From Spiroplasma endosymbiont of Panorpa germanica (GTDB lineage: Bacteria > Bacillota_I > Bacilli_A > Mycoplasmatales > Mycoplasmataceae): a stretch of 64,000 nucleotides of DNA. The stretch covers positions 868,001-932,000 of the forward strand of contig NZ_OZ026461.1 in assembly GCF_964019765.1 (NCBI RefSeq), given 5' to 3'. The position numbers and the translations under genes were made by a program. Under the pieces are notes generated by a model, which saw only the letters and a list, made by a program, of their open reading frames with translations, was not told where the DNA came from and did not search any database. Of the stretch, positions 6,264-27,050 are shown piece by piece (position 1 is the first letter of the stretch; each line of letters opens with the position of its first letter).

Positions 6264-6284
6264 TTAGTTAATTTTTTAGAATGA

Positions 6285-8222: not shown

Positions 8223-8248
8223 AACCAATAAAATTAGTTGTGGTTTAC

Positions 8249-8614
8249 TCACAGTTTTTCAACCGCAGGTTTTAGAGATGATATATATGGACCATAAATT
8301 ACTTGAACTCCAGTCCCAGCAACTTTTACTCCCAACGCTTTTGTTGATTTTAGTTTTGGTTCATCCACTAAACTGGCGTCAAATACTGTTACTCGTAAAC
8401 GAGTCGCACAGTTATCAAGCAATTTAATGTTGGCATCTCCTCCCAAACCGTCAATAATGTTTCTAAGTAGTGTGATGTCATAACCATCGATTTGATCAGA
8501 TTTTGACCCACCTTTTTTAGAGGTTGTTTTTTTACCATCACTGTGTCCCATTAATTCATTTAGTTCATTATGAATAATTTCTGGGTTATCGTATTTAATG
8601 TAAATTTTAGCCAT
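8249..8614 (-). CDS. PTS system, glucose-family IIB protein
   Basis: Cytoplasmic phosphotransfer protein of 121 residues. It accepts phosphate from a IIA protein on a cysteine and passes it to the sugar bound by the neighbouring IIC. The phosphocysteine motif NCATRLRV is at residues 68-75 (C69), followed by the family's GV.V.G..VQVIYG segment. The first ~45 residues are a charged, lysine-rich lead not typical of IIB. The gene starts three bases after the IIC stop, with its ribosome-binding site inside the IIC 3' end. No IIA gene is in this operon, so a IIA encoded elsewhere must serve it. The preceding IIC carries a second IIB-like tail without the cysteine, which makes this protein the working IIB. 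Confidence 0.85.
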   Translation of the reverse strand: MAKIYIKYDNPEIIHNELNELMGHSDGKKTTSKKGGSKSDQIDGYDITLLRNIIDGLGGDANIKLLDNCATRLRVTVFDASLVDEPKLKSTKALGVKVAGTGVQVIYGPYISSLKPAVEKL

Positions 8615-8617: not shown

Positions 8618-10522
8618 CTAACCCTCAACTTTCATAGCTTTTGAACCAGTAGTTTTAATAACACCTTCTGATACTTTGCTTGGATCTTTAACTTCGATGA
8701 TTAGTTCAGTTTTTGAATGATCTAAATCAATAATATTGTCTTTTCCTCCAAGTGCTTTTAATAATTTTTCAGCATTAGCTGAGTCTTTTTTAGTTCCTTT
8801 TGCAAGTGATGCTTTTAAAGCTTCAACTGCAACGTTTTCTTCACCAACTTCTTCACGACCTGGTGTTTTGTAATCTTTAGCTTTGATAATTCATCAGAAT
8901 CCGAAGAAATATGATGGTGACATGATTAGTAATCCGTAGATTGGAATTCACATTGCCCCAGTTCTACCAGCTCAACTACCGAAGATTGCTCCTCCACTAG
9001 TTCCTGTTGAGTATCCTGGGATAATTCCAAAGAAGATTCAGTCAATAAATCCAGCTGCGAATCCTTGTCCAACTGTAACATTTAATAAGTATGCCATCAT
9101 GAAACTTATTCCGGCCATAAAGGCGTCAAATAAGTATAACATTGGTGCTACGAATAAGAATGAGAATAGAATTGGTTCAGTGATTCCAGTTAAGAAACTA
9201 GTTGCGGCTGCAGAAATTAAAATTCCTGAACTTTGCTTACGGTTTTCTGGTTTTGCCATCATAATCATGGCAGCAGCTCCGAATGGATATCCATATTGCA
9301 TAAAGGCAAAACGTCCTGACATAAACATTGTTCCTACTTCGTTTGTAAAGTGGTTGAAATTAATCATTCAGCTACCAGCTTCACCAGAAATTTGGTTTGC
9401 AAAGTTAGCATTTCAAACAGTGTTCATTTCTAATGCTGCACGAGCTTCATCTGTCATTTGTCAACCGTTTCCGCCCATTCATTTCATTTGTTCAAAGAAA
9501 ATTGTGTATGCTCCAGAAGTCATTGTTCAACCTGTAATTACATTGTTTGAATCAATGATTGGAGTTAATCATTCCCCTCCAGCTGATGTATATCAGAATG
9601 GAGTATATTGTACATGGTGTAGTCCCATTGGAATTAGAAGACGTTCAGTAATACCAAAGAACATAGCAACTAGTGCTCCAGCTGTTCTAGAGAATTCTTC
9701 TTGTCCTCCAATTCCCATAAGTGAACCCATCCCTGATCCAATTAAGTACAGTAATTGTAAGAAGGCAGGTCATACGAAGAAGAATCCTAAACCTGCTGCG
9801 ATTCCAAAGAAGAAACCAGCAATTGGTACAAATTTTTCTCCACCAAAGAATCCTAAAACTCTTGGTACTTTAATATTATATGTGCGGTTGTGGATTACTG
9901 ACATCCCTCAACCAATTAAAATTCCTCCAAGAACAGATAGGTCAAGTGTTGGGGTAATTCCTAGAACGCTTTTCAACATCCCTTTGTTAGTTCCCTCACT
10001 AACCAATCCATACTTACCAGCTAATCCTCATGGGTCAAATTGAACCACTGCATCTCCGGCTGTATTTGTTGTTGGTAAGAATAGTGCCATTATTGTTGAA
10101 GACATAACTACGTATGCAACAAATGCTGAAACGGCTGCAACACCTTTAGATTGTTTTGCAAATCCAAAAGCTACCGAGGTACAAAATAGTACCCCTAAAC
10201 AACCAAAAACGATATCTCCGATTGACTTCATTATGTTAAAGAAGTTAACTGCTCCATCCCCTCAATTATTTTGTTGAGCGGCGGCTGCAAATCCTCCCCC
10301 AATTCCCAGGAATAGACCCGCGATTGGAAGAACTGCAATCGGAAAAACGATTACTCTGGCTAAATTTTGTAATTTTGAAAAACTTGCTCCCTTAAATTTG
10401 TTTCAATTTTTTCCAAAATTAGAATTAGCAAAAGCTTCTTTTTTTTCAGCTTTTTTGGCAATTTTGTCCTCTTTTGAGAGGCTTTTATCGTTTTCTAGTG
10501 TGACGATTTTATCGTTTGCCAT
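8618..10522 (-). CDS. PTS system, glucose-family IIC with a degenerate IIB tail
   Basis: Membrane permease of 634 residues that transports and phosphorylates a hexose or related sugar. After a charged N-terminus come about ten membrane segments. Family landmarks are the ARVIVFPIAVLPIAGLFLG opening, the GLHH loop (GLHHVQYTPFWY), and FLTGITEPILFSFLFVAP. The last ~70 residues fold-match a IIB domain (LLKALGGKDNIIDLDHSKTELIIEVKD), but where IIB has CxTRLR this protein has HSKTEL, so it cannot be phosphorylated there. The start at 10522 has AGGAG seven bases upstream. The substrate is not deducible; glucose or GlcNAc are the likely choices. Confidence 0.85.
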
Positions 10523-10567
10523 AAATTCTCCTTTTATTTGTTTAGATATTTTTTTATAAAGTGTTTA

Positions 10568-11083
10568 TTATTTTGGTTCACTCAATGTGAAAATGAATGA
10601 TCCTTCACCTCTTCAAAGTCCGTTTCCATCAACGGCTTTTAAAGTAACCTTTATAAAGTTAGTGTCAAATAAATCTCCACTAGCCTTATTCTGAATTGAA
10701 TCTTCTGTTTCGGGTACTTCAGGTACTACTTCCTCTGATTTTGAAGCATAGAAAGATTTTGTAAACTCTCCATCTTCTTTATCATCTCCAGTTACTTCAA
10801 AAGTAAAATGAACATTTTCTTTTGAACCACTTACGATTTCAGCAGTTACCGATCTTACAGCCGCCACAAACGTATCAACTGGCATTTCCTTGCTAAAAGA
10901 ATTAGATCCTGATTCATAGTATTTACTAATGTTTTCACCATCTCGGTCTCATCCACGTAATTTAGCTTGAATTGCTGGTGCATATTGATCAAATGATGCA
11001 ATTTTAACATCACAAGAAACCACAACACCTGCAGCTGAAGCTGTTAGGGTGAAACCTGCTAATAGATTTAATAACTTTCTCAA
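10568..11083 (-). CDS. Small lipoprotein leading the PTS operon
   Basis: Lipoprotein of 171 residues. It starts at TTG (11081-11083), chosen because a strong AGGAAGG lies upstream and the reading gives a complete signal peptide MRKLLNLLAGFTLTASAAG with cysteine 24. The mature part is acidic, contains a VPEVPETED linker and ends RGEGSFIFTLSEPK after a TGA tryptophan. It sits 45 bases before the IIC gene with no terminator between, so it is probably the first gene of that PTS operon. A surface role in sugar capture is possible but only inferred from position. Confidence 0.75.
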
Positions 11084-11227
11084 TTTGAATTTCCTTCCTA
11101 CTGTACTAATATCTGTACTTATTTATTATATAGTTATTTTCCAAAAATTATACAAAAAATATAAAAAAAATAGAAATTTTGGAAACTTTTAACCTTGTTG
11201 GAAAAAAGTAAACTTGATATTATAGCG

Positions 11228-11254
11228 AAAAAAAAACTAAGTTTTAGCTTAGTT
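11228..11254 (-). terminator. Terminator of the infC-rpmI-rplT operon
   Basis: AACTAAG / CTTAGTT stem with a six-base loop, followed on the minus strand by eight or more T. It lies just after rplT. Confidence 0.9.
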
Positions 11255-11261
11255 AGTTTCA

Positions 11262-11621
11262 TTATTTTGCTAAAGATTTTTTAGCAGTTTCAATAATTGC
11301 CTCGAATTGTTTTGGTTCGTTAATTGCTAATTCTGATAGCATTTTACGATTTACCTCAATTCCAGCCAATTTAAGACCATTCATAAATTTTGAATAGCTC
11401 ATCCCGTGAGGACGCACTGCAGCATTAATCCTTACGATTCATAAACTTCTAAAGTCACGTTTACGTAATTTACGCCCGACAAAGGCATAGGCCATAGAAC
11501 GAACTACTTGTTCATGTGCTTTTTTGTAACTTGATTTTTTTGTACCGTAGTAACCTTTGGCACGCTTAATTCAACGTTTTCTTCTTGCTCTGGTTACTTT
11601 ACCAAATTTAACTCTTGCCAT
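11262..11621 (-). CDS. rplT: 50S ribosomal protein L20
   Basis: L20 binds 23S rRNA and is needed for early assembly of the large subunit. The 119 residues match the family length and character: [19 protein letters not shown] at the basic N-terminus, then [30 protein letters not shown] and the C-terminal LELAIN-like region ([14 protein letters not shown]). It is the last gene of the infC-rpmI-rplT operon and starts 17 bases after rpmI. In other bacteria L20 represses this operon through the leader mRNA. Confidence 0.97.
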
Positions 11622-11637
11622 ATAATTTCGCTCCTAC

Positions 11638-11832
11638 CTATCCTTGTAATAAACCTTTTAAACGTTTCATATCTGTTGAATGAACAAATATTACTTTTTT
11701 AAGGTGTCTTTTTTGTTTTGTTGATTTGTTTTGTGCTAAGTGTGAACAATAAGCTTGACCACGTTTTCATTTTCCAGCAGCATTTTTTCTTACGCGTTTT
11801 GCTAGAGAACTTTTTGTTTTCATTTTTGGCAT
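11638..11832 (-). CDS. rpmI: 50S ribosomal protein L35
   Basis: Small basic large-subunit protein of 64 residues, the usual length. It begins MPKMKTKSSLAKRVRKNAAGK and ends MKRLKGLLQG. It lies between infC and rplT in the conserved order, with AGGAGG before its start. Confidence 0.97.
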
Positions 11833-11854
11833 AAATAAACTCCTCCTAATTTGA

Positions 11855-12388
11855 TTAGCCTTTTTTCGGCACTACATAGACATCTAAGAATCTAGCTGTT
11901 AGTTTGGGTTCTTTTTCTACCTTACAAACATCGTCAATAATTGCTAAGAAAGCATTCAAAGTTTTTTGACCAAATTCTTGATGTACTATTTCTCTTCCTT
12001 TAAATTTTAGAGAAATTTTAACTCTATCTCCATTTGAAAGAAATTCGCGAGCTTTTTTAGCTTTGGTTTCTAAATCATGTTGTCCAATTCCTACAGTTAA
12101 ACGAATTTCTTTGTTTTCTGTTCTCACTTGATTTTTCTTGTTTTCTTTTAGCTTACGCTTTTGCTCATATTTAAACTTTCCGTAATCTAAAATTTTTGCA
12201 ATCGCCGTGAAATTATCTTGTTGACTAACTTGCATTAAGTCTAAGCCCTGTTCCTCAGCCATTTTGATTGCTTCCATCTTTGGAATTGGTCCAATTTTGT
12301 TTCCATCATTATCGATGATTAAAACCATTTTTGCTCTGATCTCACGATTGACAAAATCCGACTTTACGTCCTTTTTGATATCTGCCAT
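11855..12388 (-). CDS. infC: Translation initiation factor IF-3
   Basis: Binds the 30S subunit, prevents premature joining of 50S and checks the start codon. It has 177 residues, with an N-terminal domain containing NREIRAKMVLIIDNDG and MEAIKMAEEQGLDLMQVS. A lysine-rich linker (KRKLKENKKNQ) and a C-terminal domain beginning KEIRLTVGIGQHDLETK follow. All are standard for the family, and length is normal. The ATG at 12386-12388 has AGGAGG upstream. It heads the ribosomal operon. Confidence 0.97.
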   Translation of the reverse strand: MADIKKDVKSDFVNREIRAKMVLIIDNDGNKIGPIPKMEAIKMAEEQGLDLMQVSQQDNFTAIAKILDYGKFKYEQKRKLKENKKNQVRTENKEIRLTVGIGQHDLETKAKKAREFLSNGDRVKISLKFKGREIVHQEFGQKTLNAFLAIIDDVCKVEKEPKLTARFLDVYVVPKKG

Positions 12389-12534
12389 TTAATTCCTCCA
12401 TTAAAATAAAAAATGTGCCATTTAAAGACTAATAGCACACTAAAATATTATTAACTATTTTTAGTTATAATAATCAGATTTTACCGCATCATTTAATTGA
12501 CGGTGAGCTTGTGCTACTTCTTTAAACCTTCTTA
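12389..12534 (-). promoter_or_regulatory. Structured infC leader, possible L20 autoregulatory element
   Basis: The transcribed leader is about 140 bases long. It contains the distant complementary pair TAGCAC (near 12511-12516) and GTGCTA (near 12431-12438), and a nearer ACCG / CGGT pairing around 12485-12502. Leaders with long-range pairing precede infC in many Firmicutes and bind L20. I infer the same here from position and pairing; there is no T-run that would make it an attenuator. Confidence 0.45.
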
Positions 12535-12562
12535 ATTATGACATATTCAGAAAAAATGTCAA
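12535..12562 (-). promoter_or_regulatory. Promoter of the infC operon
   Basis: TTGACA at 12557-12562 and CATAAT at 12535-12540 on the minus strand, 16 bases apart. The -35 box is a perfect consensus. Confidence 0.85.
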
Positions 12563-12701
12563 TATTTATCATTACTTTATAGTTAATTTTTAAAACAATG
12601 GGTTATATGTGTATTTTAACAATTTTGATTGTTGGACCAATTTTTAATAGTTCACTAATCAAAATAGACAAAAATATTATAAGTATCTAAGATCTTTAAT
12701 T

Positions 12702-13193
12702 TTAATCATTTTCAATGTCAAAATTTAAAGTATCAATGTAAATTTTAGTTAATTTATCAATTGTATCCGAATTTGCGTTAGTTCTGATATCTCAAATTCC
12801 TCAGTTAAATATTAAATCTTTAAAAATTTCTATTTTATCAAAAGGCATCACTGGTATCTCTGGTACCAAAAATCCAGGATAGAATTTTCAAAATTGAAAT
12901 AATTCATAAAAAAGTTGTGCTTTTTCAATTAAGTATTCTTGATGTTTTGGGCTTTTTTTAGCAGATTCTAGAAATACATTTAGGTCATCTTTTAGTGTTG
13001 AGCCTTCGAAAATATGCTTTATTTCTTCATCAGCAGCTCTACTTAAATTAATTAGATTATTCCATTTCTTTTCAAACGTTTCTAGGACATCCATTGCAGT
13101 ATTTGTTATTTTTAAGGTATCACACGATATTACACTCAAGGTAATTGGTGAGACCATGGAGATAGATGATAAAAAAATTAGTAGTTTTTTCAT
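12702..13193 (-). CDS. Small lipoprotein, unknown function
   Basis: Lipoprotein of 163 residues with the signal MKKLLIFLSSISMVSPITLS and cysteine at residue 24. An upstream in-frame ATG at 13256 exists, but the start at 13193 is preferred because GAAGGGAG precedes it and the signal peptide then begins normally. The mature part is helical and acidic, ending IDTLNFDIEND. No homology to the large lipoproteins is evident. The next gene downstream is infC with its own promoter, so this gene is probably a single transcript. Confidence 0.75.
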
Positions 13194-13309
13194 TTTAATA
13201 CTCCCTTCAAAGCTTTGCGCCTTCAGATATATTAACTCAGAACTACTAATTATCAAGACTTTAAGAAGTTTTTGTAATTTTTTAAGGTTTTTAATTATGA
13301 ATAGTGTAT

Positions 13310-14017
13310 TTATTCAAATCTTTTTATGTCATCAACTAAAGGGTCTTCACGTTCTAGGCTTCTCTTCATGTTATTTTTTTCTAAAAAATTCAGGTAATCT
13401 AAAAGTTTCTCATTTAACTCATTTTGACTTTTTTTGACTTTTTTGTCATCTGGATTATTTGAAATATCATATTTTAAATCCCTGATTAATTGTTCAAATC
13501 TATACTGTTCTAAACGCAGATTGAACATTTTAGTCTTATGTTCATCACTGTATTTTTTTTCCGGAATTTTGGTTACTCCTTCAAAATAATCTAAATCAAT
13601 ATGTTTACATCCAACATGGTGGTATCCAGCCGCAATTGCTTCTTTCATTGTGGGAGCTTGGGAATGTTCATCAGCAATAATAATAACCGTATTTTCCCAT
13701 GGTCGACAAAGAGCACATGGATCTTCTTCTTCTCGAACATAAACAACTTTTGAAAGTCTTAATGATTGTTTTTTACCAAATCAATTGTAAACTCCCATGT
13801 AGGGTTCGTTTTGCTTATCTTTAATTTTCTCTTCTTTTTGTTTTTCTAAAAGTTCTTGGCGAACTTCCTTGCGCTTGGTTATTTTGCCCCAAGGAACTAT
13901 CATAAACAATAGAAGAACAAAGGCTATAATTATTAAAATAATTCATCATGGTAAGTTATTTATTTCGCTTCCATTAGGTTTTGTAGCATTAATGTTTTGA
14001 TTAATTATTGTGTTCAT
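13310..14017 (-). CDS. Membrane-anchored protein with phage minor-capsid-like domain
   Basis: Protein of 235 residues. Residues 24-43 are one strong membrane segment (WWIILIIIAFVLLLFMIVPW), followed by a charged coiled stretch to ~70. Residues 101-147 hold CALCRPW, then AIAAGYHHVGCKH and YFEGV. This C-x2-C ... H-x2-C-x-H ... YxxG pattern, and the QYRFEQLIRDLKY helix after it, resemble the C-terminal part of tailed-phage minor capsid / head-morphogenesis proteins (C-x2-CxxW, GxxHPNCRH, YxPG, QR..ER.IR). No other phage genes are nearby. It is the last gene of a three-gene operon and overlaps the preceding stop by 17 bases. Decayed copies lie at 16786 and 19716. The actual role is unknown. Confidence 0.7.
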
Positions 14018-14210
14018 TTAAAACCTCGTAGTATTTTTGAATTAAATCGATGTTGACTTGCTGCTGGCGATCACATTTCGCACATTTAAAAACACCAATT
14101 TTATCATTTTGAATTGATTGATCTGAATTAATTAAGAACTTTTGGTAGTCTCAACACTTTTTGCAAAATAAATATATAAAACTGCTTTCTGATACTAATT
14201 CTAATTTCAT
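14001..14210 (-). CDS. Small zinc-ribbon-like protein
   Basis: Cytoplasmic protein of 69 residues with two CxxC knuckles, CKKC near 17-20 and CAKC near 43-46, the layout of a zinc ribbon. It begins MKLELVSESSFIYLF after a GAGGG ribosome-binding site. It overlaps the capsid-like membrane gene, so the two are translationally coupled. Decayed copies follow the same order in array B. Confidence 0.7.
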
Positions 14211-14224
14211 ATTTTTCCCTCTCA

Positions 14225-14497
14225 TTAATTTGAAATGTAGTAACTAACCCCCATTCCAAACATAAAAATTCCTGCTGCTATTGATAAAAAAATCATAAAA
14301 ATAAAGAAATAATGCTGCCAAAAACTAAAGATTTTGTATCTTCCTGATTCTGTTGTGAAGTCTGCTTTTTCAAATTTACGCTTTACTTTTCATTTTCTAT
14401 AGATAAAAATAAAACCAATTCCTAAAATAATAGCTAAAAAACTAAAACCAATCAATAAATTGCTTGTTAGTTGTGAAATTTCTCCCGATAGCAACAT
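14225..14497 (-). CDS. Small membrane protein, first gene of capsid-like operon
   Basis: Protein of 90 residues with two membrane helices (LLIGFSFLAIILGIGFIFI and HYFFIFMIFLSIAAGIFMF) joined by a basic loop of ~30 residues. The start is supported by AAAAGGAG. It ends 15 bases before the zinc-ribbon gene. Not recognised as any known family. Confidence 0.7.
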
Positions 14498-14645
14498 ACC
14501 AAAATCTCCTTTTTAATATTATAACCGATTAATTAAGATACCACTAATTAAATAGATTATTTGACTCTAGTAAATAAAATTAAGGTTAATATTTTAAGAT
14601 AATTACACCTGAGGCCAAAATTAATAATTAATTGACTGAACAAAT

Positions 14646-14683
14646 AAAAAACAACCATAACAAATAATGTTGTGGTTGTTTTT
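14646..14683. terminator. Terminator after lipoprotein B1
   Basis: A long inverted repeat, AAAAACAACCATAACA and TGTTGTGGTTGTTTTT, with T-runs on both sides. It serves lipoprotein B1 on the minus strand and recurs at the end of each array B unit. Confidence 0.85.
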
Positions 14684-14748
14684 GTATTATGTTTAATATC
14701 TTGACCAATTTCAAAATAAAATAATAGTTTTATTTTTGTTAATTTATT

Positions 14749-16485
14749 TTAAATAAATTTTCAAGGATTTGGTTTTTCGAGATTTTGTGTTTTGGCAATA
14801 TCATATCTATAACCAAAATTAATTCCCATCCCCTGTTGTGCATATCCATAGCTGCGTGAGAAAAATTGAAAGTAAATATCTGGAAAAAAGTATTCCAATT
14901 CCCTATCATAGAAATAGACATAACCCTCTTCATTAAAGACTGTTTTTGAAATACGAGTGCTTCCAAAACCGAGTTTCATTTCTAATGTTAAATTTAATTT
15001 TTGTCTTATTTCCTCAGACTCAGGATTGGCGTCTAATAAATCTTGAAAGTAATCATAACCACTCAAAACTTGTAAAGGCTCAAATTCGTTTCAGCTTTCA
15101 GGTTTATTAAGGAAAAATGTTAATTCGGGATTTTGTTCCTCGGTTTTTTCATTAATATTATAAAATTTTTGTGCGAAGTTTAAAGAATCTAAATAAAAGT
15201 TTCGTGCTAATTCCTTTGTATTTTCAAAAGTTTTTAATTGCTGCCTCACAGCAATTGTCATATCAGATAGCTCAAAATTCTCACCATTATATTCCACTTT
15301 ACTATTTTTAACAGATGTTTTTAGTAAGGCGATTGTATTCTGGTCTTTGTCCATATCTAAAAGAAAATGCGACTGCTGTTTTTCTAAAGTAGATTTTAAA
15401 TTTTTTTCGTTATTAAAATGAAAATCTAATACGAATGGATTTAAATCTATTGCCATGTCAGGATAAACCTTGAGACCTTCTTCTAAACCGGGTATTAATG
15501 AAATTGAAAAACTACGAACAAATGAACTATCCTTTTCTACTAGGCCATCTAATAGATCATCAATTTTATCTTGTTGACCCATTAGAGCTTGTCTAACCGT
15601 TTCAATATGATTTAAACCTTGACCTCAAGTTCACTTATTATTTGGAAATTGATATGATGAAATAACTGCCGAATTTGTGGCTGTAGTTAATGTTGCAGAT
15701 CCCAAACTTGCAATTCCCTCCACACTTTCAACAGCCTCTTTTATAATTTCATTAGCTTGTTGTTTAAGCGAGAAGTCTTCATCAATTGCAAGGGCAGTTT
15801 CCTCTATGTTACCTTTATCGCTTTTGAATATAAAATTATTAGAATTTTCCTCATTATTTATAGCGTCAGCGTATTTATTATTAGCTTCTTTAAGAATTTC
15901 TGCTGTTTTTTTCTCTACAAAAATAGTCATTTGCGCTGTGGATTTTATTGGTTCAAACTCCTGTTGTTCGGACTGATTTTTATATAAAATTTTTGAATCA
16001 ATTTCTACGCTAAGTGTTACAGCGTTATTTAGAGGTTTTGGGATTATTTCAATTTTAGAAATTTGATATCCACCTTGCAAGGGATTTTGGTTATTATAAA
16101 CCATCTTTTTGTAGTTAATATTTTGAACTACTTGGCTATTTACTTCACTTAATATTTTATCTCAGTTAATTATTGCTCTAATTTGAGTGTTAAGATCTTT
16201 GAACTCTTCACTATCGTTTTTAACCACACCCTCAATACTATTAAACTTTTCAACATTTCAACCTTCAATGGGAGAATCCTCTTCGCTTATAAAAATAAAT
16301 TTACTGAAATCCTCTGCAATATTTTTTTGAAAAATTTCTCTAATAATATCAATCATTTGATTTTTATTTTGTTCATAATCATATTCGTCATCGATTTCTC
16401 TTGGTTTCTTTTGACAAGCAACAACGCTCATGGGGGTAGAAACCGTAATAGTTGCGACTCCCAATATGCTTAATAATTTTTTCAT
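14749..16485 (-). CDS. Array B surface lipoprotein, copy 1
   Basis: Surface lipoprotein of 578 residues, signal MKKLLSILGVATITVSTPMS with cysteine 24, function unknown. Features in order: acidic DDEYDYEQN after the anchor, NPLQGGYQISKIEI near 130, FKSDKGNIEET, MDKDQNTIALLK near 380, and VRQQLKTFENTKELARNFY, the family version of the motif shared by all large lipoproteins here. The C-terminus contains SGYDYFQDLLDANPESEE and a short GYRYDIAK tail. TGA codons are read as tryptophan at four positions. Confidence 0.9.
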
Positions 16486-16514
16486 TTTTCCGCTCCTTAT
16501 ATAAATATAATATT

Positions 16515-16543
16515 ATTTTATATGCTTATAAATGTTATTGCAA
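16515..16543 (-). promoter_or_regulatory. Promoter of lipoprotein B1
   Basis: TTGCAA, 17 bases, TAAAAT on the minus strand. The same boxes occur before B2 and before the unrelated-array lipoprotein at 43496. Confidence 0.75.
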
Positions 16544-16589
16544 TGGAAAATTTTTTTTATTTAAAAACTATTAAAGTCCAGAATCAGCA

Positions 16590-16785
16590 GTTTTTTTTAG
16601 TATTATTTAATCTTTTTAAACTGCCATCTAGTTTTTGGGCCAATAAAATTATATTTCTTTTCTTCATCCTTAAAGTTATCATTCAAAATAGTATGGTACT
16701 ATCCTTTGCAATGCGATTCATTATCATCAATAATAAAAATATGATCTATATTGTAACTTGATTTTTATTTACCCGTAATAGCATT
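16590..16785 (-). pseudogene. mupG 3'-end fragment
   Basis: Matches the last ~65 codons of the intact mupG at 22468-22680 (the segment covering the GPNTRYQFKK C-terminus and the NRGDIVIIN region), with a deletion and stops. It is a passenger of the array B duplication. Confidence 0.8.
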
Positions 16786-17430
16786 TTCTTTAATTGCTGG
16801 TGCTTGATAATGTTGGTCAGCGATAATAAAATAGTATTTTTCCGCGGCCCACAAAAAACAAATAGGCAGTCTTCTTCTTGAGCATAAATAACTTTTGACA
16901 ATCTTATTGGTTGCGTTTTGCTAAACCAATTATAAGCCTCATTTTTCTTATCTTAAATGTTGTCTTCCTTATTTTTTCTAAAATTTTTTGTGAATTTGCT
17001 TGCGATTGGTTATTTTACCCGAAGGAACTACCACCAATAAAAGAATAGAAAAGGCTATAATTATTAAAAAAATATCAGTTTTGTCTCCTTAATTGCTTGA
17101 TTTGAATTTATTAAGAAATCTTAGTCGTTTTAGCAAAATAAATATATAAAACTACTTTTCTACAATAATTCTAATTACATATTTTTAGTTCTCATTAATT
17201 TGATATGTAGTAACCTTCTCCAATTCCCAAAATAAAAAACGATGTTGCCAGAAACTAAATACTTCGTAGCTCTCTTATTAAGTTGTAAAATTTGCTTTTA
17301 GAAAATTACGCTTACTCTTCATTTACTATATATAAAAATAATGCTAATTGATAAAATAACAACCAAGAAACTAAAACTAATTAATAAATTACTTGTTAAT
17401 TTTGGGATTTCTACCGCTAGCAAAATGCAA
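16786..17430 (-). pseudogene. Decayed capsid-like operon, array unit 1
   Basis: 16786-17090 matches the capsid-like gene at 13629-13950 (codons from about 130 back to 25). 17095-17185 matches the zinc-ribbon gene, and 17190-17430 the two-helix membrane gene, in the same order. Multiple stops and frameshifts are present. Confidence 0.8.
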
Positions 17431-17568
17431 AAATCATCTTTTTAATTTTATATGTGATTAATTAAGATACTGCTCACTAAATATATTGTTTATAATTTAT
17501 AAATAAAATATTTAATTTTATTAATGACTTAGGAAAAATTAGGGATTTTTGCGAGAACAGCAGAATAC

Positions 17569-17605
17569 AAAAACAACCATAACAAATAATGTTGTGGTTG
17601 TTTTT
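17569..17605. terminator. Terminator after lipoprotein B2
   Basis: Same AAAAACAACCATAACA / TGTTGTGGTTGTTTTT hairpin as at 14646. Confidence 0.85.
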
Positions 17606-17670
17606 GTATTATGTTTAATATCTTGACCAATTTCAAAATAAAATAATGTTTTGATTTTTTTTAATTTATT

Positions 17671-19416
17671 TTAAATAAATTTTCAAGGATTCGGATTTTC
17701 GAGATTCTGTTTTTTGGCAATATCATATCTATAACCAAAATTAATTCCCATCCCCTCTTGTTCATTTCCATAACTGTGTGAGAAAAATAGAAAGTAAATA
17801 TCTGGAGAAAAGCTTTCCAGTACTTTATCATAGAAATATACATAACCCTCTTCGTTAAAGACTGTTTTTGAAATGCGTGTCGATGAAAAACCGGTTCTCA
17901 TTTGTACTGTTAAATTTAATTTTTGTCTTATTTCCTCAGACTCAGGATTGGCGTCTAATAAATCTTGAAAGTAATCATAACCACTCAAAACTTGTAAAGG
18001 CTCAAATTCGTTTCAGCTCTCAGGTTTATTTAGGAAAAATGTTAATTCGGGATTTTGTTCTTCGGTTTTTTCATTAATATTATAAAATTTTTGTGCAAAG
18101 TTTAAAGAATCTAAATAAAAGTTTCGTGCTAATTCCTTTGTGTTTTCAAAAGTTTTTAATTGCTGCCTCACAGCAATTGTCATATTAGATAGCTCAAAAT
18201 TCTCACCATTATATTCCACTTTACTATTTTTAACAGATGTTTTTAGTAAGGCGATTGTATTCTGGTCTTTGTCCATATCTAAAAGAAAATGCGACTGCTG
18301 ATATTCTAAAGTAGATTTAAAATTTTTTTCGTAATTAAAATGACGATCTAATATGAATGGATTTAAATCTCTTGACATGTCCGGATAAACCTTAAGACCT
18401 TCTTCTAAACCTGGTATTTCTGAAATTCTAAAACCACCATTATAAAAAAATGAAGGATTACTTTCTACTAAGCCATCTAACAGCTCATCAATTTTATCTT
18501 GATTACCCATTAGAGCTTGTCTAACCGTTTCCAAAGGGCCGCCACCTTTACCTCAAGTTCAATTAATTTGTGGATATTGATATGATGAAATGATTGCCGA
18601 ACTTTTTGATGATGTATCCAATGTTGCAGATCCCAAACTTGTGATTCCCTCCACACTTTCAACAGCCTCTTTTATAATTTCGTTAGCTTTTTGTCTAAGT
18701 GAAAGGTCTTCATCAATTGCAAGGGCAGTTTCCTTTATGTTACCTTTATCGCTTTTGAATATAAAATTATTAGAATTTTCTTCATTATTTATAGCGTCAG
18801 CGTATTTATTATTAGCTTCTTTAAGAATTTCTGCTGTTTTTTTCTCTTCAAAAATAGTCATTTTCGCTGTGGATTTTATAGGTTCAAACTCTTGTTGTTC
18901 GGACTGATTTTTATATAAAATTGATGAATCAATTTCTACGCTAATTGTTACAGCGTTATTTTCAGGTTTTGGGAATATTTCAATTTTAGAAATTTGATAT
19001 CCACCTTGCAAGGGATTTTGGTTATTATAAATCATGCTTTTGTAGTTAATATTTTGAACTACTTGGCTATTTACTTCACTTAATATTTTATCTCAGTTAA
19101 TTATTGCTCTAATTTGAGTGTTAAGATCTTTGAACTCTTCACTATCGTTTTTAACCACACCCTCAATACTATTAAACTTTTCAACACTTCATCCTTCAAT
19201 GGGAGAATCCTCTTCACTTATAAAAATGAATTTGCTAAAATCCTCTGCAATATTTTTTTGAAAAATTTCTCTAATAATATCAATCATTTGATTTTTATTT
19301 TGTTCATAATCATATTCGTCATCGATTTCTCTTAGTTTCTTTTGACAAGCAACAACGCTCATGGGGGTAGAAACCGTAATAGTTGCGACTCCCAATATGC
19401 TTAATAATTTTTTCAT
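17671..19416 (-). CDS. Array B surface lipoprotein, copy 2
   Basis: Surface lipoprotein of 581 residues, cysteine 24. It shares the central block from FLLDMDKDQNTIALLK to NKPES with copies 1 and 3 almost without change. The segment just before it differs strongly (VESNPSFFYNGGFRISEIPG here, VEKDSSFVRSFSISLIPG in copy 1), as do the patch after NLTVQMRTGF and the last 40 residues. The pattern of fixed core and variable patches is what surface exposure plus gene conversion would give. Function unknown. Confidence 0.9.
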
Positions 19417-19445
19417 TTTTCCCCTCCTTATATAAATATAATATT

Positions 19446-19474
19446 ATTTTATATCTTTATAAATATTATTGCAA
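19446..19474 (-). promoter_or_regulatory. Promoter of lipoprotein B2
   Basis: TTGCAA-17-TAAAAT on the minus strand, as for copy 1. Confidence 0.75.
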
Positions 19475-19524
19475 TGGAAAAATTTTTTTATTTAAAAACT
19501 ATTAAAGTCCAGAATCAGCAGTTT

Positions 19525-19715
19525 TTTTTAGTATTATTTAATCTTTTTAAACTGCCATCTAGTTTTTGGGCCAATAAAATTATATTTCTTTTCTTCATCC
19601 TTAAAGTTATCGTTCAAAATAGTATGGTACTATCCCTTGCAATGCGATTCATTATCATCAATAATAAAAATATGATCTATATTGTAACTTGATTTTTATT
19701 TACCCGTAATAGCAT
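19525..19715 (-). pseudogene. mupG 3'-end fragment
   Basis: Sister of the fragment at 16590-16785 and derived from mupG at 22468-22680. It carries the same internal deletion, so the deletion predates the second duplication. Confidence 0.8.
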
Positions 19716-20370
19716 TTTCTTTAATTGCTGGTGCTTGATAATGTTGGTCAGCAATAATAAAATAGTATTTTTCCGCGGCCCACAAAAAACAAATAGACAG
19801 TCTTCTTCTTGAGCATAAAGAACTTTTGACAATCTTAATGGTTGCGTTTTGCTAAACCAATTATAAGCCTCATTTTTCTTATCTTAAATGTTGTCTTCCT
19901 TGTTTTTTCTAAAATTTTTTGTGAATTTGCTTGCGATTGGTTATTTTACCCGAAGGAACTAACACCAATAAAAGAAGAGAAAAGGCTATAATTATTAAAA
20001 AAACATCAGTTTTGTCTCCTTAATTGCTTGATTTGAATTTATTAAGAAATCTTAGTCGTTTCAGTAGTTTTAGCAAAATAAATATATAAAACTACTTTTC
20101 TACAATAATTCTAATTACATATTTTTAGTTCTCATTAATTTGATTTGTAGTGACCTTCTCCAATTCTAAAAATAAAAAACGATGTTGCCAGAAACTAAAT
20201 AATACGTAGCTCTCTTATTAATTTGTAAAATTCGCTTTTAGAAAATTACGCTTACTCTTCATTTTCTATATATAGAAATAATGCTAATTGATAAAATAAC
20301 AACCAAGAAACTAAAACTAATTAATAAATTACTTGTTAATTTCGGGATTTCTCCCACTAGCAAAATGCAA
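19716..20370 (-). pseudogene. Decayed capsid-like operon, array unit 2
   Basis: Near-identical sister of 16786-17430, covering relics of the capsid-like gene, the zinc-ribbon gene and the two-helix membrane gene. A nine-base insertion near 20060 distinguishes it. Not coding. Confidence 0.8.
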
Positions 20371-20509
20371 AAATCATCTTTTTAATTTTATATGCGATTA
20401 ATTAAGATACTGCTAACTAAATATATTGTTTATAAGTCATTAATAAAATATTTAATTTTATTAATGACTTAGGAAAAATTTAGGGATTTTTGCGAGAACA
20501 GCTGAATAC

Positions 20510-20546
20510 AAAAACAACCATAACAAATAATGTTGTGGTTGTTTTT
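20510..20546. terminator. Terminator after lipoprotein B3
   Basis: Third copy of the AAAAACAACCATAACA / TGTTGTGGTTGTTTTT hairpin. Confidence 0.85.
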
Positions 20547-20612
20547 GTATTATGTTTAATATCTTGACCAATTTCAAAATAAAATAATAGTTTTTATTTT
20601 TGTTAATTTATT

Positions 20613-22352
20613 TTAAATGAATTTTCAAGGATTTGGTTTTTCGAGATTTTGCTCCTCGGCAATATCATATCTATAACCAAAACTAATTCCCATACCCTTT
20701 TGTGTATTTCCATAACTGACTGAGAAGAATTGAAAGAAAAGATCTGGGGTTGCGTATTTCAATACATCATTATAGAAATAGACGTAACCCTCTTCGTTAA
20801 AGACTGTTTTTGCAATTAAATTTGCACCTCTAGCATATTGCATTAGTACTGTTAAATTTAATTTTTGTCTTATTTCCTCAGACTCAGGATTGGCGTCTAA
20901 TAAATTTTGAAAGTAATCATAACCACTCAAAACTTGTAAGGGTTCAAATTCGTTTCAGCTTTCAGGTTTATTCAGGTAAAATGTTAATTCGGGATTTTGT
21001 TCCTCGGTTTTTTCATTAATATTATAAAATTTTTGTACGAAGTTTATAGAATCTAAATAAAAGTTTCGTGCTAATTCCTTTGTGTTTTCAAAAGTTTTTA
21101 ATTGCTGCCTAACAGCAATTGTCATATCAGATAGCTCAAAACTCTCACCATTATATTCCACTTTACTATTTTTAACAGATGTTTTTAGTAAGGCGATTGT
21201 ATTCTGGTCTTTGTCCATATCTAAAAGAAAATGCGACTGCTGTTTTTCTAAAGTAGATTTTAAATTTTTTTCGTCATCAAGTCTAAAATCTAATATGAAT
21301 GGATTTAAATCTATTGCCATGTCCGGATAAACTAAGAGACCTTCTTCTAAACCGGGTATTCATGAAATTGGAAAACTACGAACAAATTCACTATTCTTTT
21401 CTACTAAGGCATCTAGCAGCTCATCAATTTTATTTTGTTTACCCATTAGAGCTTGTCTAACCGTTTTCAAAGAGCTGTCATTTCGACCTCAAAATCAATC
21501 ATTATTTGCACTTTGATATGATGAAATGATTGCCGAACTTTTTGATAATGTAGTTAATGTTGCAGATCCCAAACTTGTGATTCCCTCCACACTTTCAACA
21601 GCCTCTTTTATAATTTCGTTAGCTTGTTGTTTAAGCGAAAGGTCTTCATCAATTGCAAGGGAAGTTTCCTTTATGTCACCTTTATCGCTTTTGAATATAA
21701 AATTATTAGAATTTTCTTCATTATTTATAGCGTCAGCGTATTTATTATTAGCTTCTTGAAGAATTTCGGCTGTTTTTTTCTGTTCAAAAATAGTCATTTG
21801 CGCTGTGGATTTTATTGGTTCAAACTCTTGTTGTTCGGACTGATTTTTATATAAAATTGTTGAATCAATTTCTACGCTAAGTGTTACAGCGTTATTTAGA
21901 GGTTTTGGGATTATTTCAATTTTAGAAATTTGATATCCCCCTTGCAAGGGATTTTGGTTATTATAAACCATCTTTTTGTAGTTAATATTTTGAACTACTT
22001 GGCTATTTACTTCACTTAATATTTTATCTCAGTTAATTATTGCTCTAATTTGAGTGTTAAGATCTTTGAACTCCTCACTATCGTTTTTAACCACACCAGG
22101 AATATTATTAAACTTTTCAACATTTCAACCTTCAATTGGAGAATCCTCTTCGCTTATAAAAATAAATTTACTGAAATCCTCTGCAATATTTTTTTGAAAA
22201 ATTTCTCTAATAATATCAATCATTTGATTTTTATTTTGTTCATAATCATATTCGTCATCGATTTCTCTTGGTTTCTTTTGACAAGCAACAACGCTCATGG
22301 GTGTAGAAACCGTAATAGTTGCGACTCCCAATATGCTTAATAATTTTTTCAT
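20613..22352 (-). CDS. Array B surface lipoprotein, copy 3
   Basis: Surface lipoprotein of 579 residues, cysteine 24, the copy next to the intact mupG. The fixed core and the VRQQLKTFENTKELARNFY motif are as in copies 1 and 2. Variable patches include MQYARGANLIAKTVF and YNDVLKYATPDLFFQFF. Its promoter (TTGTAA-17-TATAAT) differs from that of the other two copies, so expression level may differ. Function unknown. Confidence 0.9.
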
Positions 22353-22381
22353 TTTTCCCCTCCTTATATAAATATAATATT

Positions 22382-22410
22382 ATTATACACACTTATAATA
22401 AGCATTACAA
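22382..22410 (-). promoter_or_regulatory. Promoter of lipoprotein B3
   Basis: TTGTAA, 17 bases, perfect TATAAT on the minus strand. Confidence 0.75.
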
Positions 22411-22427
22411 TGTAAAAGTTTTTGTTT

Positions 22428-22463
22428 AAAAACACCAACAAAGCTAGCTTTGTTGGTGTTTTT
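22428..22463. terminator. Terminator of mupG operon 1
   Basis: An 18-base perfect palindrome arm (AAAAACACCAACAAAGCT and its complement) with a T-run, directly after the mupG stop. Confidence 0.9.
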
Positions 22464-22467
22464 AGTC

Positions 22468-23568
22468 TTATTTTGTTTTTTTAAACTGATATCTAGTATT
22501 TGGGCCGATAAAATTCAAGATAAAGAGTTGTTCTGGTTTAATTGAGCCAATAAAATTATATTTCTTTTCATCATCTAAAAAGTTATCCTTTAAGATAATA
22601 TGACACTCACCTTTATAATGTGAATCTTTATCATTTATAATAACAATATCACCCCTATTGTAAATTGATTTTTGCTTACCCACAAGAATATCTTCATTTT
22701 TATAATAAACCCTAGTCATTGTATAGCGAATAAACATTTCTGTAATATCCATTCGTCTAAAATGTAAATGGCTAAATAGGATTTTTTCTTCAGCTAAAGA
22801 TAATTTATTTTCTAGTTTTAAATCAAAAGTAATTTCGTCACGATCTATTTGAGAAACCAATTTTAATTCTTCTTCACTGGCATAAGCATTTCCAAAGAAG
22901 ACAACGTCAATTTCATCACAATATAATAAAATCTTAGCTTGGCTAACTACATCATAAAATCTCATGAACTCTAAAGTTGGAAACTCTTTATTTCCTAAAG
23001 CTGGTCCTTGAGTTCCAAAATGACTACCAATAAAGGCAGCGGTGCTTAATCGATGTTTTAAATATTTTTTATTAGCTTCTGAGAAAAAATCATAAGGGAT
23101 GGCAGTATTTTTTTGAGGATAAAAATTATGACAACCACTTAAACGATTTTTAATTGGTTTAAAATCCATTACATTGGTAATTAAATTATCATTATTTGAC
23201 ATATTCAATTGCACATCAATTCCATAGCGATTATGGGTTAATTCTGCAATCTCACTTGGCAAACTTGGTGAATCTAATCTAATACAATCAATCCCCATTT
23301 CCAAGCATTTTTTGGGGTCTTTTAAATCAATTCCTAGACGTTCCAATGAAACATTTTCAAAATCAGCAATTGTATAAAAGCCAATACTTTTAGCATACTT
23401 TAAGGACTTGTTGATTTTTTGAATTAACTCAATTGGTTGATTATTTACATGAAAGTAACTTGTAAACACTTGAGTATAACCCAGAGATTTAGCTAAGTCC
23501 AAATAAGCTTTGTCCTTTTCAAAAGTTGATTGCTCTGGATAGATTGATATTCCTAATTGTTTTTTCAT
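22468..23568 (-). CDS. mupG: MupG-family (DUF871) 6-phospho-glycosidase
   Basis: Cytoplasmic hydrolase of 366 residues. Characterised MupG cleaves MurNAc-6-phosphate-GlcNAc into MurNAc-6P and GlcNAc. The family signature is clear: MKKQLGISIYPEQSTF at the start of a TIM-barrel-like N-terminal half, IRLDSP near 115, LNMSNND, GCHNFYPQKNTAIP near 160, GPALGNKEFPTLE, then a smaller C-terminal domain with HFRRMDITEMFIRYTMTR and YNRGDIVIINDKDSHYKGE. Length is normal and it contains no TGA codon. It follows a IIB-IIA-IIC operon with a hairpin between, so its substrate should be the 6-phospho-disaccharide made by that PTS. The substrate could also be another phosphorylated disaccharide. Confidence 0.8.
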   Translation of the reverse strand: MKKQLGISIYPEQSTFEKDKAYLDLAKSLGYTQVFTSYFHVNNQPIELIQKINKSLKYAKSIGFYTIADFENVSLERLGIDLKDPKKCLEMGIDCIRLDSPSLPSEIAELTHNRYGIDVQLNMSNNDNLITNVMDFKPIKNRLSGCHNFYPQKNTAIPYDFFSEANKKYLKHRLSTAAFIGSHFGTQGPALGNKEFPTLEFMRFYDVVSQAKILLYCDEIDVVFFGNAYASEEELKLVSQIDRDEITFDLKLENKLSLAEEKILFSHLHFRRMDITEMFIRYTMTRVYYKNEDILVGKQKSIYNRGDIVIINDKDSHYKGECHIILKDNFLDDEKKYNFIGSIKPEQLFILNFIGPNTRYQFKKTK

Positions 23569-23582
23569 AAAAACGCCTTTCT

Positions 23583-23609
23583 AAAAAACAGATTCTTAAG
23601 AATCTGTTT
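23583..23609 (-). terminator. Terminator or attenuator between IIC and mupG
   Basis: AAACAGATTC / GAATCTGTTT stem with a T6 run on the minus strand. It lies in the 52-base gap between the IIC stop and mupG and may set a lower mupG level by partial read-through. Confidence 0.75.
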
Positions 23610-23620
23610 CAATCATATTT

Positions 23621-25822
23621 TTAAACTTTTTGAGCTTTAGCTTCTAAAGCTTTACTTTTGGTTTCGGCTTTAGCTGCTTGTTTTTCCATATATTTATCTC
23701 ATTTAGGTTTGTATTTTTCAACTTTGCTATCACGAGTAGCTTTGATTTCTTGAGCTTTTTGTAGGTATTTTTCTTCTTTTGCTTTAGCTTTTTTATTGTT
23801 GCTTTCAATCGCTAAGGCAAGTTTTTCTTTATTAACCATACGTTTTTCTCAGAATTCATTTACTGTCGCTGCATCATTTAATGCATTTTCTGCTTTTAAT
23901 TCGTTACCTGAAACTTTTCTTTCAGTAATAACTCCATAACGATATTCTGGATCATTGTAGTAACGCATTTCTTGGTTGTATTGTTCAATGTTAGCTGCTT
24001 TTAATTTTTTGAAGTAGTTTGCATTGTCAATTAATACAAATGGGAAGTAGAAGATAATACTTACCCCTAGACAAATGGTTGCTGGAATAATCGCCATCGC
24101 ATCAATTGAAGTTAATACAGCTCCAAAGATTCATGGACTTGTTCAAGGTGTTGCTACATATGAATATTTAACAATCCCTAAAACATCTGGTGAGAATAAT
24201 CATCCAATAATTAGGTTAACAATTGGTGAGAAGATAAATGGTGCTACATAAATTGGGTTTAAAATTAATGGGTATCCAAAAATAGTTGGTTCATTAATTT
24301 GGAAAACTCCAGCTGGTAAAGCATATTTAGCAACTTCTCTTAATTCTTGACGTTTTGAAACGGCAAATGTCATAATTAGAAGTCCTAAAGTAGCTCCACT
24401 TCCCCCAACATACATATATGAGTCAAAGAAAGGTTTTGTAAATGCCCCCATTTGACCTGAATCTGCAGCCATTTGGTAACCCATTGAAGTTACTAGGGCT
24501 GCATTAATTCCTAAAATCATTCATCAAATTGGTTCAAAGATCCCAGCCATTAGGTTTGATCCATGAACTCCAAAGAATCAGAAGAATCCAGTGAAGAATA
24601 CAAAGGCAATGGCTAAACCAATTCCCCCACTTCCAGTTGCAAAACCAATGAATGCAGCTGTAAAGATTTTATAAATAAAGGCTCCAGCACCAAATTGTGT
24701 GGGTCCTAAAACAATTGTTTGAAATGATGCTGATAAAATGTACCCTCCGTTAGCAGAATCTAAGTAGAAAGACATTTTAGCAGCCTCATTTAGTCATGCA
24801 AAGTTTGAGTGACCTTGTAAAGTTGCAATCGCTGTAGTTCAAACAGCTTGGTCAGCGGCTCCTAATGCATTATAAGTGTCAACAAAAGCTTTTTGGTTTT
24901 CTAATGAATTTTCTAGTGCCAATATTTGTAGCATTGGTGTTAATAATTCTTTATATTCCACAAAAGCTTGTAAAGCTCCTTTGTCTGCAAATAAAGCGTC
25001 AATATTATTTCCATCAATTGTTCCAAACATTTCACCAAATTGTTTTGAGGTTAAAGTAAAGTAGCTTCCACTATTTACAAATCAACCTCCACCAACAATT
25101 GCCATTGAAAGGAAGATAATGTTAACTGCTCCCACAGTTCCTAATGTAATTACCACGGGTAAGAATACAGCAAATGATTTACCAACTGCTGGGGGTACTC
25201 CGTCTGGTAATTTAATATTTAAGGCACGAACTCCTGATAAATAAATAAAGAATTCGGTTGCCAGTAATCCAAATAGTATTGCTTGAATTAATCCAACTGC
25301 TCCCATGAAGAAAGTAACTTCCCCCATACAAGCAAGTAGGAATGCTGATAATGAAACAAAACCAGCAATAATTGGTGATTTAAAATTACGACTTAATGCA
25401 ATAAAGTATCCAAATAGGAAAGCAAAGTAAATTGCCATCATTCCTACAGTTACTGTATTGATATGTCCGAATGCCAATCCCCCAATTTTAGACGCTTGTC
25501 CTCATCCATTTGAAATGTCACCAAGTAATTCAGTAACTCCATCTCATGAAACACTAGGATTTGCAGCTTTACAAATAAGACCTAGAAGTGAAACATATCC
25601 ACTTCCAGCCCCACCAAAGATAATTGCATTGATTAGAATTCCAATCGAACCTGCAATAATCAGTGGAATCATAGTTCCAAAAGAATCTCGAATCGCTGCT
25701 AAATGACGTTGGTTACCAACTTTAGCCATTCCCGGGACAAGCGATTCACTTATTCATTGTTTAAAGGTGCGTTTTTCTTTTTTTCGCACCTTTTGGACAT
25801 CAAATTTTTCAACTTCTGCCAT
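23621..25822 (-). CDS. PTS system, lactose/cellobiose-family IIC
   Basis: Sugar-translocating permease of 733 residues, well above the usual ~430-450. The N-terminal MAKVGNQRHLAAIRDSFGTMIPLIIAGS and the GVFQINEPTIFGYPLILNP motif near 475-495 mark the lactose/cellobiose family. Two extensions account for the length: an insert of ~100 residues in an outer loop (NSGSYFTLTSKQFGEMFG to NEAAKMSFYL, about 235-345), and a charged tail of ~140 residues after ~594 (rich in KAKAKEEKYLQKAQE, coiled-coil-like). Its IIB and IIA lie directly upstream and a mupG downstream, which points to a disaccharide such as MurNAc-GlcNAc or chitobiose-like sugar. Confidence 0.85.
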
Positions 25823-25881
25823 GATTAATACTCCTCTCCATATTTTTTTAAATAAAAAGTATGTTTCTTAGTTAATATTTT

Positions 25882-26202
25882 TTATTTACCTATTTTTTTA
25901 TAGACATCAATAAACTCTTTTGCCAATAGAATAATAGTTTGAGTTGTTAATAATTGATCTTCGGCATGAATAAACAAAATCGGGAAGGTGATTTTCTCTC
26001 CTCCAGCTTCAGCGCTCACAATATCCATATGAGTTTTTTCTGCAGTTAGAATTGATTTTTCCGCTTCTTCAATTAAGTTTTCCGCTTCTTCATAACGACC
26101 ATTTTTAGCAGCAACAATTGCTCCCATTGCATGGCCCTTTGCTTCCCCAGCAAAGGCAATAATTGTAAATGAGATTTCCTCAAAATTTCAAGTTTTACCC
26201 AT
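25882..26202 (-). CDS. PTS system, lactose/cellobiose-family IIA
   Basis: Cytoplasmic phosphocarrier of 106 residues, helical and trimeric in the family. It takes phosphate from HPr on histidine 79 (LFIHAEDQLLTTQ) and passes it to IIB. The GEAKGHAMGAIVAAKNGRYEEAE opening is typical. The start at 26202 follows the IIB stop by five bases. Confidence 0.9.
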
Positions 26203-26207
26203 CACAA

Positions 26208-26504
26208 TTAACCTAACATTCTTTGTGCCATTTCGCACGCTTCCTTGGCTTTTGCTAAAGCATATATATTTGCAGGAATAACTTCAACTGGTTTATCAGT
26301 TAATTTTTTTAAATCTCCAAGAGCATAACTTACTTGTGGGCCAACCATAACGATATCTCATTGGTCAACTACAGTTTTAGCTTCTTGCATTGACATAGCC
26401 TCAATGGTTCATTCCAAACCTTCTTTACGAGCATAATCTGTCATTTTCTTGACAAGAGTACTTGTACTCATACCTGCTGAACAGCATAGTAAAATTTTCT
26501 TCAT
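26208..26504 (-). CDS. PTS system, lactose/cellobiose-family IIB
   Basis: Cytoplasmic phosphocarrier of 98 residues. The phosphocysteine loop is KKILLCCSAGMSTSTLV, with C8 as the likely phosphorylated residue and C7 an extra neighbour. VGPQVSYAL near 60 is the usual second loop. It is the first gene of the IIB-IIA-IIC-mupG operon and has AGGAGG before its start. Confidence 0.9.
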
Positions 26505-26538
26505 TTTATTTTCCTCCAATAATTTTTTCTATATTATT

Positions 26539-26547
26539 AGTATAACA
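26539..26547 (-). promoter_or_regulatory. Extended -10 promoter of mupG operon 1
   Basis: TGTTATACT on the minus strand (TGn plus TATACT), 35 bases before the IIB start. No convincing -35 box is visible, as is common with extended -10 promoters. Confidence 0.55.
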
Positions 26548-26629
26548 ATTATAGAATTTTTTTCCACTATTTTGACCAAAAAAGATTTTTTTCTCTACTT
26601 TATGCTAAAATTATTAAAAGAGGTTAATT

Positions 26630-26821
26630 ATGGTTTCAAATCTAATTTATTATTGTTTTATTCCAATTGGATTGTGGTTGATATTTTTTCTAACAGTCTA
26701 CATTTTGGAGACTTTTTTTCAAGTATTTATGCCTAAAAAGATTTTTTGACTACTTCTAACATTTGTTATTGTTACTTTAATAGTTATTGGCTTGGTGATC
26801 GGATCCTTACAATTTGAGTAA
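26630..26821 (+). CDS. Tiny two-helix membrane protein
   Basis: Plus-strand gene of 63 residues, divergent from the PTS operon, with a good AAAGAGG nine bases before ATG. It encodes two hydrophobic helices (LIYYCFIPIGLWLIFFLTVY and LLLTFVIVTLIVIGLVIG) around PKKIF, with one TGA read as tryptophan. It ends just before a terminator. Not recognised. Confidence 0.6.
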
Positions 26822-26859
26822 GAAAATTTTACATTAAGGCAAGCATTGAAAATAACCTT

Positions 26860-26887
26860 ATCCTTGCAAATTTTGTAAGGATTTTTT
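26860..26887 (+). terminator. Terminator of the tiny membrane gene
   Basis: ATCCTTGCAA / TTGTAAGGAT stem with T6 on the plus strand. Confidence 0.8.
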
Positions 26888-26985
26888 AGTTCAATTACTA
26901 TTACTAGTTCTTTAGTATATCACCTAAGAATATAATCACAAAATTATCAAAATAACATTCTTCATTAAAACTTCCATTTTTTAGA

Positions 26986-27050
26986 CAAAAAAAACACCTC
27001 TAAACGAAATCAGAACAGTGTTTTTTACTGTTAATTTTGATTTAGGTGTT
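26986..27050 (-). terminator. Terminator of lipoprotein C
   Basis: A two-tier hairpin: outer AACACCT / AGGTGTT and inner AACAGT / ACTGTT arms, followed on the minus strand by eight T. Confidence 0.8.

Follow-up and report, generated by a model that had tools for sequence, protein, structure and literature searches.

A fossil C-mupG junction between tandem lipoprotein genes of a Spiroplasma endosymbiont

A 64,000-nucleotide stretch of the genome of the Spiroplasma endosymbiont of Panorpa germanica (positions 868,001 to 932,000 of contig NZ_OZ026461.1, hereafter the window) carries a tandem array of three lipoprotein genes, called array B, whose two spacers contain remains of genes from both flanks. 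How did pieces of these genes come to lie between the lipoprotein copies, and how old are they compared with the copies they separate? On the minus strand the order is mupG, lipo3, spacer S2, lipo2, spacer S1, lipo1, A, B, and C. All repeats are in direct orientation, and no inverted repeat of at least 60 nucleotides (nt) was found in window 9000-27000. TGA is read as tryptophan in this genome (code 4), and under this code the three lipoprotein frames are all intact. An assembly artefact is unlikely, because the genome is a single contig of 1,054,068 bases with 99.8% completeness, 30 of 1031 aligned sites distinguish S1 from S2, and 198 alignment columns vary among the lipoprotein genes. We consider it likely, with a probability of about 0.85, that the array arose by one old duplication through a join between C and mupG, followed by spacer decay, a late third copy, exchange of the lipoprotein scaffold, and selection on two segments.

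The junction shared by both spacers

An earlier note, made from the sequence alone, had proposed that a 3' fragment of mupG runs into codons of C between the lipoprotein copies and on through relics of the whole operon. Alignments to both parents bear out the fusion. S2 matched the A/B/C side with 492 of 667 positions identical (E 4e-119) and a further 233 of 309 (E 3e-57), and the match of the spacer to mupG and its downstream region was 224 of 331 (E 2e-37); given these E-values, the matches are not due to chance. The spacers were 73-75% identical to A, B, and the 5' part of C; for the mupG part, identity was 68% with gaps counted. The latter consists, in each spacer, of the last ~220 nt of mupG plus the region downstream of the gene. 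The wording "whole operon" nearly holds, in that A, B, and a part of C (C') are all represented, but the relics have internal deletions: ~38 nt is missing from A, and the end of B and the start of C are gone. The relic C frame has two TAG and two to three TAA codons within ~107 codons, and the relic mupG frame one of each within 52 codons. Both parents flank the array as proposed, intact mupG upstream and A-B-C downstream.

In a three-way alignment, the switch from C to mupG occurred at the same bases in S1 and S2, so that a difference between the units, which would have indicated independent events, was looked for and not seen. Homology to C extends to 13640 and homology to mupG restarts by ~22692; the end points proposed earlier, near 13630 and 22680, are about 10 nt off. 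Read on the coding strand, the 5' part of C is followed by the 3' part of mupG, and the two reading frames share their codon phase across the join. Such a hybrid of two distant parental sites, with the parents on both flanks and the units in direct orientation, is expected of an illegitimate tandem duplication. Inspection for microhomology gave a divided answer: over 13645-13634 and 22698-22687, 9 of 12 bases are identical between the parents (p ~0.01 against random position pairs), while no exact run is longer than 4 bases (p ~0.12), and decay blurs any microhomology. The features are listed in Table 1.

Table 1. Features of array B and its flanks (window coordinates; aa, amino acids).
Feature	Position	Strand	Basis
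mupG, 366 aa, 6-phospho-N-acetylmuramidase, intact upstream parent	22468..23568	-	Pfam MupG_N 1.8e-80, MupG_C 2.7e-32
Duplication end point in mupG, 12-nt zone partly homologous to C	22687..22698	-	three-way register
Terminator hairpin of mupG itself, decayed in spacers	22426..22465	.	
lipo3, lipoprotein, 579 aa	20613..22352	-	code 4 translation
Spacer S2, relic A-B-C' joined to relic mupG 3' end	19417..20612	-	alignment to parents
Fossil junction in S2	19711..19722	-	three-way register
lipo2, lipoprotein, 581 aa	17671..19416	-	code 4 translation
Spacer S1, relic A-B-C' joined to relic mupG 3' end	16486..17670	-	alignment to parents
Fossil junction in S1, same as in S2	16780..16791	-	three-way register
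lipo1, lipoprotein, 578 aa	14749..16485	-	LP_plasma lipoprotein signal; AlphaFold2 mean pLDDT 86.3
lipo1 hypervariable part, residues 266-375	15361..15690	-	divergence between copies
lipo1 hypervariable part, residues 481-565	14791..15045	-	divergence between copies
Terminator hairpin 3' of lipo1, downstream edge of homogenised block	14647..14683	.	equivalents 17564-17610, 20505-20551
A, 90 aa membrane protein, parent of relic A	14225..14497	-	weakly MPN207a-like, below cut-off
B, 74 aa small Cys-rich protein, parent of relic B	14001..14225	-	
C, 235 aa, membrane anchor and Phage_min_cap2-like C-terminal domain, downstream parent	13310..14017	-	PF06152 1.5e-7, over cut-off
Duplication end point in C	13634..13645	-	three-way register

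Ages of the junction, the spacers, and the lipoprotein copies

S1 and S2 differ from each other by 2.9% and from their parents by ~25%. In a maximum likelihood (ML) tree of 1028 shared sites, the two spacers formed the sister group of the A-B-C/mupG genes of the window itself (bootstrap 100), and their placement with either of two relatives in the same genus, G001 and G002, was rejected (approximately unbiased (AU) test, p < 1e-4); one genome per species was used in these comparisons. In-frame stops and decay on the window's own lineage thus agree with the earlier statement that flanking genes were carried along and left to rot. Branch lengths in the ML tree came to 0.068 (parents), 0.241 (spacer stem), and 0.014-0.016 (tips of S1 and S2); the spacer was hence already old by the time it was copied, and the third unit is recent. 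The divergence of S1 and S2 corresponds to about 6% of the age of the junction. The identical junctions therefore represent one event and a late copy, not two witnesses, and together with the two levels of divergence they point to one old illegitimate duplication followed much later by homologous expansion. When changes were polarised by G001, excluding sites with gaps or differences between S1 and S2, codon positions 1/2/3 had 47/32/35 changes on the spacer lineage and 17/6/25 on the parent lineage, as expected for a decaying spacer and constrained parents.

The lipoprotein copies have a different history. The three genes show 91-93% identity, with synonymous divergence (dS) of 0.112-0.132 and nonsynonymous divergence (dN) of 0.064-0.088. 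The block of high similarity reaches, with sharp edges, from ~33 nt before the start codon, in the -10 region of the promoter, to the terminator. The third-position difference between copies in the scaffold was 0.049-0.071. The functional parents have accumulated 0.121 third-position change on one lineage since the junction formed, so ~0.24 would be expected between two independent lipoprotein copies. The copies are thus 3-5 times younger than the junction, indicating that they have been homogenised. Informative sites form a clustered mosaic, with 90 adjacent equal pairs compared with 63.8 after shuffling (0 of 10,000 shuffles as high). Copies younger than the founding duplication, sharp tract edges, and mosaic sites are together characteristic of concerted evolution. 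The recA gene is present and open across the entire family profile, so RecA may be the agent of exchange between copies. The age of tandem copies is usually masked by exchange that resets it again and again, whereas the dead DNA between these copies preserves the true date, which makes concerted evolution measurable from one genome.

The lipoprotein gene is a late arrival in the gap between mupG and A, and mupG-A-B-C were contiguous beforehand; this, and the youth of the copies relative to the junction, had been missed earlier. In G002, A-B-C starts 63 bp after mupG without a lipoprotein between (an empty site), and mupG also adjoins A at the more distant loci L090 and L091. The gene order in relatives indicates that the mupG-A gap was filled differently in sister species. 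In G001 this gap (L089 6735-10302) contains four other small lipoprotein-like frames and one plus-strand frame. Among 40 genomes searched, full-length relatives of lipo1 were present in the three genomes of the genus (at least 26, 34, and 29 matches), and 8 other genomes matched lipo1 near the signal peptide only. No plasmid-borne relative of lipo1 was matched among 72,556 records at 1e-5.

Variable segments and competing explanations

Residues ~266-375 and ~481-565 differ far more between the copies than the scaffold does. In these segments, codon positions 1+2 diverge more (0.163-0.245) than position 3 (0.134-0.141), the opposite of the scaffold (p 0.013, 0.008, and 0.0004 for three pairs that are not independent). 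In residues 276-300, the proportion of nonsynonymous differences (pN) was 0.280 and that of synonymous differences (pS) 0.064, with Fisher p 0.052 on a one-pair scale. By this measure, the evidence for clean positive selection is borderline. In 8 other tandem arrays from three Spiroplasma species, pN/pS was 0.78, 0.40, and 0.64 in residues 276-300, 301-375, and 501-560, respectively, versus 0.27 elsewhere; arrays winA and L107 do not share the first variable segment. Positions changed in at least three of these 8 arrays overlapped the variable positions of array B (34 vs 15.7 expected, p 2.7e-7). The recurrently changed positions were enriched in coil of the AlphaFold2 model of lipo1 (odds 2.5, p 9e-5), as were those of array B (odds 1.68, p 0.015).

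The lipo1 fold had no clear match among solved PDB structures (Foldseek best E 0.088; 0 matches by sequence profile). The best structural comparison, with VIA, was weak (Z 6.5, root mean square deviation 5.7, 105 aligned). The lack of a clear structural match and the recurring variable segments single out this large lipoprotein family of insect-associated spiroplasmas, and an interaction with host or phage is testable. The reverse transcriptase (PF00078) of a diversity-generating retroelement was not found in the one genome concerned (0/1), the control being positive in 3 of 14.

The likely history of array B is as follows. A lipoprotein gene, equipped with a promoter and a terminator of its own, came to sit between mupG and A-B-C in a Spiroplasma lineage. 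A single illegitimate recombination would then have joined the C site to the mupG site, duplicating the 3' end of mupG, the lipoprotein gene, A, B, and the 5' part of C, and the new middle A-B-C'/mupG' copy, being redundant, decayed. Much later, unequal crossing-over of the RecA type between the long lipoprotein repeats may have produced the third copy together with a copy of the decayed spacer. Exchange among the lipoprotein copies has held the scaffold alike, and selection would keep or raise the differences in the two loop-rich segments. The duplication mechanism itself is ordinary and already known; interest lies in the dated junction and in the variable family of lipoproteins.

The same tandem array, junction, and flanks would also result if the lipoprotein segment had been cut out as a circle, with C' and mupG' sealed together, and had then reinserted by homologous recombination in the lipoprotein gene. 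This route takes two events where one suffices, and neither a recombinase nor an element end was seen at the junction, although no search was aimed at either; we regard it as improbable. With only ~75% identity to the parents in the window, the spacers might seem to have come from another strain or species with its own A-B-C/mupG fusion. However, the tree described above places them with the genes of the window itself, and their identity to G001 (63%) and G002 (59%) is lower, so a foreign origin is very improbable. Independent duplications as the source of S1 and S2 are rejected, since the junctions are equal base for base, nearly all deletions are common, and the divergence is so low.

For the variable segments, relaxed constraint in loops together with chance, without diversifying selection, deserves serious weight, if somewhat short of even odds. 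pN strongly exceeds pS only in residues 276-300, where the Fisher test is itself marginal, and the ratio in the same residues of the 8 other arrays stays below 1, but relaxed constraint alone should not make positions 1+2 exceed position 3 as they do in array B. Three further observations count against parts of the duplication, decay, and selection history. The weak microhomology at the junction makes the class of the first event uncertain. In the ML analysis by codon position, the spacer stem measured 0.38 for position 3 but 0.20 for positions 1+2, and constraint on the duplicated A-B genes may thus have persisted for some time; the similar numbers of polarised changes at the three codon positions on the spacer lineage point the opposite way. 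Position 3 in the variable segments also exceeds that of the scaffold, and import or escape from conversion thus competes with selection.

Gene C, known systems, and other arrays

The description of C as capsid-like is fair for its domain only, and as a capsid gene it does not stand. C matched PF06152 (Phage_min_cap2) over its C-terminal part only (profile 221-353 of 366) and Listeria phage minor capsid proteins at 28.6% over residues 90-224. In place of the rest of a capsid protein it opens with a hydrophobic helix, and Cys and His residues are invariant in 7 homologues. The predicted structure (mean pLDDT 59.5) is too weak to be relied on beyond the first helix. C was present in 16 of 60 genomes searched, its own included, and its neighbours in relatives are infC-rpmI-rplT, B, A, phosphotransferase system (PTS) genes, and mupG, with no phage neighbours; a scan of genome contigs with the C alignment gave only two loci, in Williamsoniiplasma lucivorax and in a Spiroplasma metagenome-assembled genome. 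The partial domain match, the spread over genomes, and the neighbours disfavour a prophage gene. C is probably a conserved membrane protein whose C-terminal domain is of the phage minor-capsid type. It travels with B and PTS/mupG (loci L088-L093), and may carry a domesticated phage domain. The identity of mupG agrees with the presence of both MupG domains.

In the join-point model (PMC11111574), a tandem duplication by illegitimate, short-homology recombination is followed by RecA-dependent amplification. Array B has in common with it tandem units in direct orientation, a join that combines the two end sequences, intact parents at both ends, and later expansion between long repeats. It differs in that its join is a fossil, ~25% decayed and much older than the adjoining repeats, and lies in genes outside the selection that kept the array. 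The vlhA, vsa, and vpma systems of Mycoplasma (PMC4534519) are likewise tandem paralogous surface lipoproteins of a mollicute, with a conserved frame, variable parts, and recombination between copies, whereas the copies of array B are all intact and each has promoter-like and terminator sequences. A single expression site with silent donors, an inverting promoter, or a phase-variable repeat, the signs of phase or antigenic variation, were not seen in array B. The antigens of Ehrlichia, another tandem family, are not known to be related to the array B lipoproteins. According to PMC4534519, Ehrlichia antigen arrays comprise 17-22 tandem, mostly complete genes with their own promoters and with spacers between them, as in array B, but array B has far fewer copies and its spacers are relics of named flanking genes. 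No title in the literature searched dealt with array B or with spacer relics as a clock, a statement confined to that search. It is a tentative possibility that the arrays form a surface-diversification system of the Spiroplasma clade, in which co-expressed tandem lipoproteins with an exchangeable scaffold and a promoter-to-terminator conversion cassette would carry two loop-rich segments whose divergence is driven by a partner, either an arthropod host or a phage; the decayed spacers would serve as the inbuilt clock that reveals it.

Ten tandem lipoprotein arrays were examined for flank relics, and relics like those of array B were found in two others, suggesting that the spacer-clock approach may work across the clade. 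The spacers of array A in the window hold relics of the upstream PTS genes (8227-8510 and 8639-8705), and those of array L108 in G002 (L113 with longer flanks) hold pieces of flanking places. Spacers of L097 (L112 with longer flanks) are long and had no flank relics, and no flanking-gene relic was identified in the 85-271 nt spacers of winC, L096, L101a, L101b, L102, and L107. In L113, 10000-10769 and 12570-13451 correspond to distinct places in the flanks, and ~370 nt of the matching sequence lies 3.4 kb ahead of the array. The array A spacers at 3523-4003, 5804-6284, and 1245-1722 contain relics of a PTS IIB-like gene and of the 3' end of PTS EIIC. Array A also has a truncated fourth lipoprotein copy at window 946-1331 (L110 6947-7332), with ~390 nt of the start at 87% identity and without a full frame. 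A third tandem lipoprotein pair lies at window 44791-48559, with 88% identity and a spacer of only 85 nt.

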